DNA from: an uncultured Thiotrichaceae bacterium
GTDB taxonomy: Bacteria; Pseudomonadota; Gammaproteobacteria; Thiotrichales; Thiotrichaceae
Length of the DNA: 64,000 nucleotides
Assembly: GCA_937925855.1 (NCBI GenBank)
Contig: CALAMO010000010.1
Coordinates: forward strand, 1-64,000
Reading direction: 5' to 3'
Below, piece by piece: positions 2,028 through 9,188 of this stretch. The number at the start of each line of letters is the position of its first letter. Position 1 is the stretch's first letter. A model generated the notes under the pieces. That model worked only from the letters and a program-made list of their open reading frames with translations, was not told where the DNA came from and searched no databases. The translations under genes and the position numbers were made by a program.

Positions 2028-2262
2028 AGGTGTATCCTTTGACTCGTTTTTATAGGCCGATTAGAGAGTTACAGTATATCGATAAAAGGCTGAAAAAATG
2101 TACCTATTTCTGGTGCAACGGTTCTGCCGCTGGGTGATGTGCTGGCGTGGCGCGGGCTTGAACACGGTACGGTAAGGGCGACACCAGTTGTGGCCGCTGC
2201 CGCTTGTGGATTATGCTATACGCATACGCTATCAATGTCCCATTCAATGCGAGTACCCATCA

Positions 2263-2898
2263 ATGGACGACCAGAAAAAAGTCACCGAGCTTTATCACAC
2301 CTTGCACAGCCACCTGCCGAGCGAACCTGCGCTACGGGTGAAAACGATTCAGAGCCTGCTGGTCGAAAAAGGCCTGATCCAAGAAGCGACCATCGACAGC
2401 TGGGTACAGGCGTATAGCGAAGACATTGGCCCGCGCCGGGGCGCTGAGGTGATTGCGAAAGCCTGGCTGGAGCCGGATTTTAAGCAGGCTCTATTGGCGG
2501 ATGCCGCGCAGGCCGTCGATGAGTTGGGACTGATGGGGAAGGCCGTCGGCCATTTAAAAGCGGTGGAGAATACTGACGCTGTTCACAATATGGTGGTGTG
2601 TACGCTGTGTTCCTGCTACCCCTTTGCGCTGCTGGGTATTGCGCCGGACTGGTACAAAAAAGCCGCCTATCGCTCGCGGGCTGTGCGTGAGCCGCGTCAG
2701 GTGCTGCGCGAGTTTGGCGTCGAATTGGCGGATGAGATTACCGTGCGGGTGTATGACAGCACCGCTGAGCTGCGCTATCTGGTGATTCCGCAGCGTCCGG
2801 CGGGAACCGAGGATTTTACGGCAGCGCAGCTGGCCGATTTAGTGACGCGCAATGCGATGATTGGGACACAGCGTGAACTCAGCGTGGAGGTGGCCTGA
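2263..2898 (+). CDS. nthA: Nitrile hydratase alpha subunit, cobalt type
   Basis: The alpha subunit of nitrile hydratase binds the catalytic metal and hydrates nitriles to amides in the cytoplasm. The metal-claw motif is VCTLCSC; threonine after the first cysteine indicates the cobalt form (iron enzymes have serine). The flanking VRVYDSTAELRYLVIP and REPRQVLREFG blocks are also typical. The ATG at 2263 (MDDQKKVTEL) is chosen over an upstream TTG because it gives the normal length of 211 residues; no strong Shine-Dalgarno is visible. Its TGA overlaps the ATG of the beta subunit gene, so the two are translationally coupled. Confidence 0.95.
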   Translation: MDDQKKVTELYHTLHSHLPSEPALRVKTIQSLLVEKGLIQEATIDSWVQAYSEDIGPRRGAEVIAKAWLEPDFKQALLADAAQAVDELGLMGKAVGHLKAVENTDAVHNMVVCTLCSCYPFALLGIAPDWYKKAAYRSRAVREPRQVLREFGVELADEITVRVYDSTAELRYLVIPQRPAGTEDFTAAQLADLVTRNAMIGTQRELSVEVA

Positions 2899-3551
2899 TG
2901 GACGGTATTCATGATTTAGGCGGGAAGCAGGGCTTTGGCCCGGTGGCGGTCGACAGTGAATATCACCGTATGGACGATCCCATCGATGCCTTCGGTTGGA
3001 CGATGAACCAGACGCTGCGGGCGCCCGGTTTGAGCATTGATTGGTGGCGACATATTCGCGAGCTGACCCCCCCGGTCGATTATCTGACGCGGCCTTATTT
3101 CGATCAGTGGGTGATGACGCAGCTGATTGCGATGCTTGATACCGGCGTGCTGACCTTGGAGGAGGTGCTGACGCATCAGCCGATTCCGCTGGCTGAACCG
3201 GTACCGGCGATGAGTGTTGCCGATGTGCTGGCGGCGAATCGTGCGGCGGGCAAGCGTTTCGATACGCCGATTGCAGCGGCGCCGCGCTGGGAGATTGGCA
3301 GCAGCGTGCTGATGCGTAATGCCTCGTTTTCTGGACATAGCCGCTTACCGAATTACGTGCTGGGGAAAGCGGGCGTGATTACGGCGCAGCATGGCGCACA
3401 TTGGTTCCCTGATGCCTGTGCGCATGGGGATGAGCGCGCCGAACACCTGTATACCGTGGAATTTACCGCCGCTGAACTGTGGCCGCAGGACGCGGTGGAG
3501 AATAACCTGATTTATCTGGATTTATGGGAGTGCTATTTTGTCGACGCCTGA
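2898..3551 (+). CDS. nthB: Nitrile hydratase beta subunit
   Basis: The product starts MDGIHDLGGKQGFGPV, the canonical N-terminus of nitrile hydratase beta subunits, and has 217 residues, a normal length. The C-terminal half carries the SH3-like beta barrel (FSGHSRLPNYVLGKAGVI and LYTVEFTAAELW) that packs on the alpha subunit. Start and stop codons overlap with the genes on either side. This indicates coordinated synthesis of alpha, beta and the accessory protein, as needed for cobalt loading. Confidence 0.95.
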   Translation: MDGIHDLGGKQGFGPVAVDSEYHRMDDPIDAFGWTMNQTLRAPGLSIDWWRHIRELTPPVDYLTRPYFDQWVMTQLIAMLDTGVLTLEEVLTHQPIPLAEPVPAMSVADVLAANRAAGKRFDTPIAAAPRWEIGSSVLMRNASFSGHSRLPNYVLGKAGVITAQHGAHWFPDACAHGDERAEHLYTVEFTAAELWPQDAVENNLIYLDLWECYFVDA

Positions 3552-7034: not shown

Positions 7035-7451
7035 TTAGGCGGGCAAATCTAACCAGTTTTCAAACTGCAGCTCCGGTACTCGACTCAATTCATGCGTGTT
7101 ATTAGTGACGAGGATGAGTCCTAAAGCGCGGGCATGTGCTGCAATCCAGAGGTCATTGCCACCGATGATCTGCCCTTGTTTTTCCAGTGTGCTGCGAATC
7201 TCTCCGTAATGCACCGCAACATCCGTTGCCAGTGGCTGAACTGGGAGTAACTCACTCAGCCGGACTAGGTTTTGGCGTACTGCTTCGGCGGCATTGCTTT
7301 TACTGGCCCCGTTATACAGTTCACCGTAGGTAATGAGTGACATGACCACTTCGCCGGGGTGCAACTGACGGAATTTTGTGGCGACTGCCGGTGGGCGACG
7401 TTTGCGTAAATAAATACAGGTGTGTGTGTCCAGCATATAACGGGCTTGCAT
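7035..7451 (-). CDS. vapC: VapC-type PIN-domain toxin
   Basis: This 138-residue PIN-domain ribonuclease has the acidic metal-binding residues in YMLDTHTCIYL (D8), TYGELYNGA, and GGNDLWIAAHA. The C-terminus LVTNNTHELSRVPELQFENW is standard for VapC/FitB toxins that cleave tRNA or rRNA. Its ATG overlaps the stop codon of the antitoxin gene (TGATG), the usual coupling. All expected active-site residues are present, so it looks functional. Confidence 0.93.
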   Translation of the reverse strand: MQARYMLDTHTCIYLRKRRPPAVATKFRQLHPGEVVMSLITYGELYNGASKSNAAEAVRQNLVRLSELLPVQPLATDVAVHYGEIRSTLEKQGQIIGGNDLWIAAHARALGLILVTNNTHELSRVPELQFENWLDLPA

Positions 7452-7681
7452 CAGTCGAAGTTTCTTTCTTGTGGGGTAGGGGCGTTGCGGCCTTCAGCCA
7501 TAAAGTCATCCGGCATGTCAGCCAAAACGCTTAACACATCCAGCAGGTTTTCTTGCTTGCGGCGCAGCACCAATTCATCGCCACGCCGAAAGATTTCTAC
7601 TTCACTGACATCCAACTGAAATTCTCTTGGGATGCGCACGGCCTGAGAATTGCCGCTTTGAAAGACTCGTGTTGTTTGCAT
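7451..7681 (-). CDS. vapB: VapB-type AbrB/MazE-fold antitoxin
   Basis: The 76-residue product begins MQTTRVFQSGNSQAVRIP, the swapped-hairpin DNA-binding fold of VapB antitoxins. It is followed by VEIFRRGDELVLRR and a C-terminal toxin-binding tail ending near FMAEGRNAP. It precedes vapC, and the pair would autoregulate from the promoter upstream. It is a distant relative of the second VapB at 44372-44605, with the same GxSQAVRIP core. Confidence 0.92.
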   Translation of the reverse strand: MQTTRVFQSGNSQAVRIPREFQLDVSEVEIFRRGDELVLRRKQENLLDVLSVLADMPDDFMAEGRNAPTPQERNFD

Positions 7682-7856
7682 ATTATTTCCCGTATATACT
7701 TTTATGTCTATACATTAGCAGTTTTGTATGATGGCTGCAAAGCTTAGTCAAGCGGCGTAGCGTATTTGCTGCACCATTGCTTAAGTTGGCTTTACGGCGG
7801 TTTTATTGCTGAAGCTTCTGGGCAGACTGTATAAGTTTGTGCCAGACTCTAGCGTT

Positions 7857-9188
7857 ATGAACGATATTTTTATCAGCTATAGCTCAAAAGACCGTGCCTG
7901 GGTGGAGGGGCTTGCACGCCTGCTGACTGCGCAGGGTTATCGTGTTTGGTGGGATAGTAGCCTGCTCGCTGGTCACCATTTTCACCGTACTATCGCGGAA
8001 AAACTCGAAGCCGCACATTGTGTGATTGTGGTGTGGACAGAACATGCCGTTGAATCAGATTGGGTACTTGCTGAGGCGGATCGGGCGCGGGCGCGGCGCG
8101 TGATTGTGCCGATTCAGCTGCGGGATGCGCCGCTGCCACTGCCGTTTAATCGAGTGCATACGGAGAATTTCCAGAGCTGGCAGGGTGGGGTGGACGAGCA
8201 GCCGTTTCAGCGGCTGTTGCGAGCGATTGAGCAGCATGTGGCGGCAAAAAACGCAGCCGTAAAGCCAAAGCCGCGCCTAGTGCAGGGCAGGCCTGCTAAG
8301 TTTTTACCGCGTGTGAGACGTAACGGTTGGGCAGCGCTGAGTGCCGTGCTGCTGTTTGGCGTGGTGTATGCGGTTAATGGTTTTTATGGGATTAGGGGTG
8401 ATGCGGCGCAGGGGCGGGCTGTGGATAAAACGCCGTTAATCACCGCCAGCACTCAGCCAGCGCCGGCGGGCGCGGTGATTGCGCTGGATCATGGGCTGCG
8501 GCTTGTAAATATTCCGCGCGGGCGTTTTCAGATGGGGAGTCAGCAGGGGCGTGCCAATGCAAAGCCGGTGCATACGGTGACGATTGGCGCTGATTTCTGG
8601 ATGAGTCAGACTGAGGTGTCCTTCGCACAGTATGCTGCTTATGCTAAAGCGACGGGACAAGCGCAACCTGATGATTACGGTTGGGGGCGGGGTTCCAGGC
8701 CCGTGATCAATGTTTCGTGGCACGATACGCAGGGCTTTGTGCAGTGGCTGTCAGCAAATAATAAGCAGGGCTTAAGCTGTCGTCTGCCGTCAGAGGCTGA
8801 GTGGGAATATGCTGCGCGCGCGGGTACGACAACGGCTTACTCTTGGGGCGATCAAATTGCTGTAAATCAAGCGAATTGTAATGGCTGTGGCAGCCAGTGG
8901 GACAATATAAAAACCGCGCCTGTGGCCCGCTTTGCCCCGAATGCATTTGGTTTATATGATATGCATGGTAATGTTCGAGAATGGGTGCAGGACAAATTTT
9001 ATTTGAACTATCAGAATGCACCGACAGATGGCACAGCCTGGGAGTCGGGGGGAAGCAACAATCGGGTAATTCGCGGGGGTAGCTGGGATTTTTCTCCTCC
9101 ACAACTAGCGGTTGCGCTGCGGGGGTACGACCTGCCTCGGCATAAGCACGCCAGTCTTGGCTTCCGCATTGTGTGTTCACGCAGCTAG
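7857..9188 (+). CDS. TIR domain - transmembrane - formylglycine-generating-enzyme-like protein
   Basis: The 443-residue protein has three parts. Residues 1-130 form a TIR domain (MNDIFISYSSKDRAW; ESDWVLAEAD with a candidate NADase glutamate at E73). Residues 157-178 form a single transmembrane helix (GWAALSAVLLFGVVYAV). Residues 215-443 form an FGE/SUMF1-type domain (GRFQMGS, RLPSEAEWEYAARAG, GNVREWVQD, RVIRGGSWD). The ATG at 7857 is preferred to an in-frame TTG at 7806. The gene is monocistronic, downstream of vapBC on the opposite strand. TIR-FGE fusions are known in bacteria without an established role; NAD cleavage triggered by a periplasmic or C-terminal sensor is inference. Confidence 0.9.
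   Translation: MNDIFISYSSKDRAWVEGLARLLTAQGYRVWWDSSLLAGHHFHRTIAEKLEAAHCVIVVWTEHAVESDWVLAEADRARARRVIVPIQLRDAPLPLPFNRVHTENFQSWQGGVDEQPFQRLLRAIEQHVAAKNAAVKPKPRLVQGRPAKFLPRVRRNGWAALSAVLLFGVVYAVNGFYGIRGDAAQGRAVDKTPLITASTQPAPAGAVIALDHGLRLVNIPRGRFQMGSQQGRANAKPVHTVTIGADFWMSQTEVSFAQYAAYAKATGQAQPDDYGWGRGSRPVINVSWHDTQGFVQWLSANNKQGLSCRLPSEAEWEYAARAGTTTAYSWGDQIAVNQANCNGCGSQWDNIKTAPVARFAPNAFGLYDMHGNVREWVQDKFYLNYQNAPTDGTAWESGGSNNRVIRGGSWDFSPPQLAVALRGYDLPRHKHASLGFRIVCSRS

Follow-up and report, generated by a model that had tools for sequence, protein, structure and literature searches.

The protein and its domains

The window analysed here is the whole stretch of 64,000 nucleotides from an uncultured Thiotrichaceae bacterium (contig CALAMO010000010.1, forward strand). 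A protein of 443 amino acids is encoded on the + strand at 7857-9188 from an ATG at 7857; the frame is open, and would extend to 7806-9188 if a TTG start were taken. Two Pfam domains were identified, both far above cut-off: TIR_2 at residues 4-121 (E 1.9e-24) and FGE-sulfatase at residues 216-439 (E 7.6e-53). Pfam returned only these two for the window protein, with no NTPase domain between effector and FGE. One hydrophobic stretch lies between the domains, bearing out the layout of TIR, helix and FGE given in the preliminary description, and as a predicted architecture this supports the signal-gated design proposed there. The features are as follows.

7857..9188, +, putative TIR-TM-FGE receptor gene, 443 amino acids; open frame, both Pfam domains over cut-off
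7866..8219, +, TIR domain, residues 4-121; Pfam TIR_2 E 1.9e-24, PDB profile search leading to NAD-hydrolase TIRs and SARM1
8073..8075, +, codon of E73, predicted catalytic glutamate; found with W69 in 20 of 20 aligned TIRs, aligned with the glutamate of AbTIR, PdTIR and others
8328..8393, +, one predicted transmembrane helix (residues 158-179) with its N-terminus inside; hydropathy 1.78, charge bias, a comparable stretch at 11 of 13 further TIR-FGE loci
8502..9173, +, FGE/SUMF1-like domain of C-type-lectin fold, residues 216-439, predicted outside; Pfam E 7.6e-53, model nearest PvdO, FGE and TvpA
9087..9158, +, residues 411-434, equivalent by alignment to the DGR variable region of relatives; no template found for the window copy

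The window gene is the sole FGE-family gene found in its own genome, which has six TIR_2 matches.

Genomic neighbourhood

The gene is flanked by a divergent VapBC pair and a rhodanese-domain gene. VapB (7451-7681, -) and VapC (7035-7451, -) are supported by Pfam MazE/PIN and by NCBIfam, where VapB scores above the TA_anti_VapB cut-off and VapC, at 133.7 of 140 bits, falls just below that of the tRNA(fMet)-VapC model. A CRISPR array of 28-nt repeats at 60-nt spacing is located at approximately 20-709, at the contig end and about 7.1 kb from the receptor gene; its repeat is presumably of an I-F-like kind. No cas genes were found among the window neighbours tested. The tested genes between the array and vapBC are mostly metabolic, encoding a GGACT-domain protein, nitrile hydratase alpha and beta, aldolase II, MFS and Ldh_2 proteins. 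The two nitrile hydratase subunits adjoin each other at 2188-3551.

An antiphage or abortive-infection role had been suggested partly from the proximity of vapBC and the array. Both are present, but as evidence for a defence island they were rejected as uninformative, the tested neighbours being mostly metabolic. Homologous loci were surveyed through 153 ORFs of 15 loci, with frames shorter than 110 amino acids and the receptors themselves left out; 8 DGR parts were then dropped and 145 proteins scanned. With PADLOC at 1e-15, and among the 25 of 29 families listed, there were at most six members of PDC-S03, at most four of PDC-S01, two of mad2 and one each for Cas6, Csx1, CARF and Cas12f-type models, in a scan without a control set. 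The neighbours of the 15 related loci are thus mixed, with scattered defence-candidate and CRISPR matches among mostly ordinary families, again without a control set, and no consistent defence neighbours. Neighbourhoods free of defence genes, put forward beforehand as an argument against the role, were therefore seen in part: the window is mostly metabolic and the related loci are mixed. An antiphage role of the putative receptor is plausible.

The TIR domain

W69 and E73 are present within a W-x-x-x-E motif, as had been described. Both are invariant across 20 of the 23 TIR hits, in an alignment that excludes L006, L033 and the partial L060. A wider alignment takes in the excluded rows together with additional receptors, and here 7 of 9 sequences have glutamate at the E73 position; the exceptions, L006 and the same-genus genome G004 (L223), read Lys and Gln at E73 and Phe at W69, with a Glu one residue later. 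A degenerate active site in homologues, which would have counted against NADase activity, was not seen in most of them.

Bacterial TIR proteins, among them the NAD+ hydrolase AbTIR, head the PDB matches of the TIR profile, and SARM1 lies within the best 60. In each of the five alignments examined E73 falls on the glutamate of the matched TIR structure, which is the catalytic residue of AbTIR, PdTIR and other NAD-hydrolase TIRs. A Foldseek search with the predicted model brings up SPARTA TIR-APAZ for the TIR part, and PADLOC TIR defence models match it as well. The plausible NADase glutamate noticed earlier is thus intact and conserved among TIRs of the same kind, and the TIR domain probably destroys NAD.

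A second TIR protein in the same genome (L032, 1312-2124 of contig 58) has hydrophobic stretches on both sides of its TIR domain. It resembles the TIR-TM half of the split pairs described below, but the genome yielded no further FGE gene.

The FGE domain

By both sequence and fold the FGE half is closest to PvdO, then to FGE, and the DGR variable protein TvpA was also matched. The Foldseek TMt of 0.68 to 2q17 is that of a SUMF1/FGE fold. Every NCBIfam equivalog that matched, PvdO, GldK and EgtB among them, falls far short of its cut-off (133.2 of 500 bits for PvdO), and the domain is therefore a member of the fold without support as an enzyme of those families. Two cysteines are active-site residues of FGE. 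The alignment of the S. coelicolor enzyme with the window domain has no counterparts of these two, the cysteines of the window protein being only at 55, 308, 341, 344 and 440. Because the pair is absent, we read the domain as a binding domain of C-type-lectin fold and not as an enzyme.

FGE domains are common, being found in 133 of 369 class genomes at 1e-30. In one homologue search the closest relative of the window domain (62%), L003 from the same genus, is borne on a CHAT protease and joined to it through a hydrophobic stretch. The same FGE type on a different effector suggests that one sensor type serves several killers, and this is the best support for the mechanism proposed below.

Predicted membrane helix and topology

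Topology and signal-peptide-like stretches were called from hydropathy and charge. The most hydrophobic 19-mer in the protein is at residues 161-179, with a mean Kyte-Doolittle value of 1.78. Its N-terminal flank has four K/R and no D/E, and its C-terminal flank three K/R and two D/E. Hydropathy was measured for 13 other TIR-FGE loci. A hydrophobic segment separates the two domains in 11 of them (means 1.39-3.03, four under 1.6), and in each of these 11, as in the window, the N-terminal flank is more positive than the C-terminal flank. The other two TIR-FGE proteins, L197 and L199, have no such segment. The predicted model has no helix at 158-179; pLDDT is below 50 there and that part of the alignment contains no homologues.

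Some relatives are split into two genes. In three of these loci (L069, L077 and L220) a TIR-TM gene precedes an FGE gene whose N-terminal stretch is hydrophobic and resembles a signal peptide. In two more (L068 and L221) the FGE partner has a signal-peptide-like stretch and the TIR gene has no segment over threshold. L069, L077 and L068 were chosen for the closeness of both domains; L220 and L221 came from the reverse transcriptase (RT) search. One relative, L193, has PEGA repeats on the FGE side of its helix. The FGE domain is predicted to be outside the inner membrane, tethered by one helix.

Distribution of related proteins

A profile search covered 63 genomes of the same family. Among the matches listed, near-full-profile TIR-FGE proteins are in G000, G016, G022, G026 (two loci), G033, G420, G423, G424 and G425. 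The one in G033 has a stop inside, and a match in G418 covers positions 59-441 only. With G004 added through its DGR and the helix-less G026:C141 left out, the fused TIR-TM-FGE loci number at least 11, spread over 11 of the 63 family genomes. At least three of the 11 (G033, G418 and G004) are interrupted, as might be expected of a costly gene; assembly error is also possible.

Outside the family, a full-length match was found in one other genome of a class draw of 369 (G230) and in one other genome of a phylum draw of 398 (G785). These are lower bounds because at most four candidates were scored per genome; the partial TIR-FGE protein of G197, for example, shows as FGE only in these draws. Viral contigs scanned with the TIR profile gave no match, none of the plasmid (564) and phage (23) records with a match covers 80% of the query, and the scan of genome contigs gave one locus, for the TIR part only.

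DGR linkage in the relatives

DGR-type RTs were found at 1e-15 in 15 of the 63 family genomes. In G423 the genes after a TIR-TM-FGE gene (L192) encode an HRDC-domain protein and a reverse transcriptase, and a template repeat comes next. Where its variable region differs from the template, the mismatches are at template A in 11 of 11 cases over the best 90 nt, 14 of 14 over a 106-nt core in which A makes up 28 of the 106 template bases, and 17 of 18 over 128 nt when the flanks are counted in. L223, from G004 of the window's genus, shares this order; over its best 80 nt all 11 mismatches are at A, and the receptor reads in two overlapping frames. L220 (G425) has a split pair of TIR-TM and FGE genes, then HRDC, RT and template, with 6 of 6 mismatches at A in 80 nt. 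Longer stretches of L223 and L220, running past the repeat, have 25 of 48 and 21 of 38 at A. L221 (G421) has the order of L220, with no template over threshold.

Other genes of G423 were compared with the L192 template. Mismatches are at A in 21 of 22 cases for a caspase-FGE gene (L219), in 18 of 19 and 17 of 18 for two kinase-FGE genes (L282 and L283, the latter a kinase by eye only), in 18 of 19 for an nSTAND1-FGE gene (L284), and in only 11 of 19 for a CHAT-FGE gene (L285). L219 has its own HRDC and RT, and L282 has the start of a cassette at the contig end; thus it is not established that one template serves all of the G423 targets. Eight other TIR-TM-FGE stretches did not give a clean pattern against this template, which is foreign to them and does not test their home templates.

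The A-specific mismatches show, at the level of sequence, that the FGE ectodomain is diversified by DGR in some TIR-TM-FGE relatives, a mutation-making retroelement varying the receptor much as antibodies are varied. The same kind of predicted ectodomain is found on caspase, kinase, STAND and CHAT effectors, showing effector swapping among the relatives.

Some candidates were less clear. L193, L194 and L195 were considered as remote targets of a DGR in their own genome, but are unsupported, with 17 of 40, 17 of 49 and 19 of 55 mismatches at A. In G230 the TIR-TM-FGE gene is accompanied by a bAvd-like gene, under the Pfam cut-off, and an asparagine-rich, template-like frame; no RT was found on its 5.6-kb contig, and a codon-length gap spoils a simple mismatch count. 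Picking ORFs longest first can lose genes, and the RT of L222, placed by the RT search, is not shown there.

Another DGR type was seen in family genomes at L224, L225, L226 and L227, in which large FGE targets and short FGE proteins surround HRDC and RT; the short FGE gene of L226 has 9 of 9 mismatches at A. At L219 (5192-7060) a signal-peptide-like start, caspase and FGE are in one chain beside HRDC and RT. If exported, this caspase would act outside the cytoplasm.

The window copy

A search of its own genome (G000) gave no template for the window gene. The L192 template has no match there, yet it has a match in the other 15 of 16 genomes, which were chosen for receptors or DGRs. There are no DGR-type RT matches in G000 at 1e-15, in an assembly that is 96.6% complete. 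Against five foreign templates the window stretch has 60-62 mismatches, of which 18-25 are at A. The window gene was therefore rejected as a live DGR target, having no template, no DGR-type RT and no A-specificity of its mismatches. With neither a DGR-type RT nor a matching template seen in the genome, the window copy is read as fixed, whether it was once a DGR target or never one; the few per cent that the assembly lacks could still contain a DGR.

The stretch equivalent to the variable region, residues 411-434, is identical to the closest relative at 4 of 24 positions, against 141 of 210 elsewhere, and is less identical than the rest in 47 of 48 comparisons. The same stretch is poorly kept in FGE domains generally (median 0.29 vs 0.49 in the 66 kept of 89 with a match), the window being third lowest of the 66. 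Its low identity is thus mostly a property of the fold, and special fast evolution in the window was rejected.

Two other RTs in this genome were considered and rejected as DGR components. One precedes a Cas6 gene (L030, 1288-3512 of contig 35) and is a CRISPR-linked RT. The other directly follows a short HTH-like gene (L031, 1078-2325 of contig 42) and is presumably retron-like.

Proposed mechanism and alternatives

The domain content suggests a single-chain membrane receptor, in which ligand binding by the ectodomain would gate a cytoplasmic TIR NADase. Anchored by its single helix on the outer side of the inner membrane, the FGE/C-type-lectin domain would bind a ligand, and this would cluster or re-orient the TIR domains in the cytoplasm. 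NAD+ would next be cleaved by the TIR domains, or turned by them into a cyclic ADP-ribose signal, and the cell would be halted or killed. From export through ligand binding and clustering to NAD cleavage, these steps are ones that we infer, as is a ligand in the form of a phage or other foreign molecule. Set against this reading are the modest hydropathy, the lack of a helix in the model, L197 and L199, the TIR genes of L221 and L068, the altered motif in G004 and L006, neighbourhoods that are not clearly defence islands, and the lack of any DGR sign in the window gene itself. On balance the receptor reading has about an even chance of being right.

The same machine could respond to another ligand, as a kin-recognition, cell-contact or stress receptor and not an antiphage one. 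The lack of consistent defence neighbours would fit this, and the available text of PMC7517822 interprets DGR proteins of cyanobacteria as tuning signal transduction. However, the TIR, caspase and STAND effectors that share this type of ectodomain are characteristic of conflict systems as described in part of PMC8195603, and a role of this other sort seems unlikely.

It is improbable that the TIR is a non-enzymatic scaffold recruiting another effector. Some TIRs are adaptors, the TIR part of the model has a pLDDT of only 42-84 by block, and two relatives have an altered W/E motif. Yet Trp and Glu are kept throughout the 20 aligned TIRs, and no consistent partner gene was noticed on unsystematic inspection of the loci.

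A protein that does not cross the membrane, with TIR and FGE both in the cytoplasm as proposed for many FGS sensors, likewise has a small chance of being correct. It would agree with the modest hydropathy, with L197 and L199, and with the description of FGS as an intracellular invader sensor in the accessible part of PMC8195603. Against it, the window protein and 11 relatives have the hydrophobic segment and its charge bias in the same position, the split FGE partners have signal-peptide-like starts, and the PEGA repeats of L193 are on the FGE side. That the FGE domain is catalytically active in the manner of PvdO or FGE, with the TIR serving for location or regulation, is very improbable, since, although PvdO is its best match in sequence and fold, the cysteines of the S. 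coelicolor enzyme have no counterpart, the PvdO, EgtB and GldK models score it far under their cut-offs, and ectodomains of the same kind are DGR targets.

If the membrane receptor reading is followed further, the TIR-TM-FGE proteins may be bacterial counterparts of Toll-like receptors. The DGR would rewrite the outward surface of receptors that share an ectodomain and have different killers (TIR, kinase, caspase or STAND), and the window would hold a 'germline-like' fixed copy that kept its specificity after loss of, or without, the retroelement. This is offered tentatively, and we consider it somewhat more probably wrong than right.

Relation to known systems

FGS/CLec sensors with effectors and DGRs are already known, as described in the portions available of PMC8195603, PMC7159879, PMC10907252 and PMC7517822. 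Among the closest counterparts are the STAND NTPase-FGS (FGE) conflict systems of PMC8195603, which in its available text have a C-terminal FGE/FGS proposed as invader sensor, an N-terminal effector that may be TIR, and a frequent DGR link. Unlike these, the window protein has a membrane helix in place of an NTPase, and no DGR was found in its genome. The DGR CLec antigen sensors of Thiohalocapsa PB-PSB1 (PMC10907252, in part) are also alike, combining variable CLec/FGE domains with TIR, CHAT, STAND, kinase and TM parts, and some of the CLec domains are predicted to be periplasmic. There the TIR accompanies CHAT (DGR 2, predicted cytoplasmic) or STAND, and a single-chain TIR-TM-FGE is unmentioned in the available text. 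The same text states that STAND-associated CLec domains have had no experimental characterisation yet.

Cyanobacterial DGR variable proteins have N-terminal signalling domains, including TIR-like ones, and a C-terminal CLec; some have TM or a signal peptide, but they are mostly cytosolic according to the accessible part of PMC7517822, unlike the layout predicted for the window. TvpA and other Treponema denticola DGR proteins share the FGE-type domain and a surface location, and their system includes an HRDC accessory gene, remote targets, and targets left in strains without a DGR (PMC4891356, in part). These are lipoproteins, however, for which no effector domain is mentioned in the portion available. 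HRDC as a DGR accessory is also described in part of PMC10053308. In the literature text searched, as distinct from figures and supplements, no TIR-membrane-FGE receptor in one chain was described as a DGR target.

PvdO (PDB 5hha) is the closest solved fold for the FGE half, which differs in reaching only 133 of 500 bits and in being fused to a TIR. The TIR fold is also common to the window protein and TIR defence proteins such as those of Thoeris and SPARTA, with matches that span the TIR part only; these proteins differ in their sensor and in having no membrane helix in the matched part. If true, the membrane receptor reading would add a membrane-spanning, NTPase-free layout to the DGR-linked conflict receptors. 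It would also provide a small single-gene system in which to ask what C-type-lectin ligands are and whether their binding fires the TIR. FGE-domain genes are also found in Microcystis phages (phage records H21-H29), about 40% identical to the window ectodomain and in up to four places per record.
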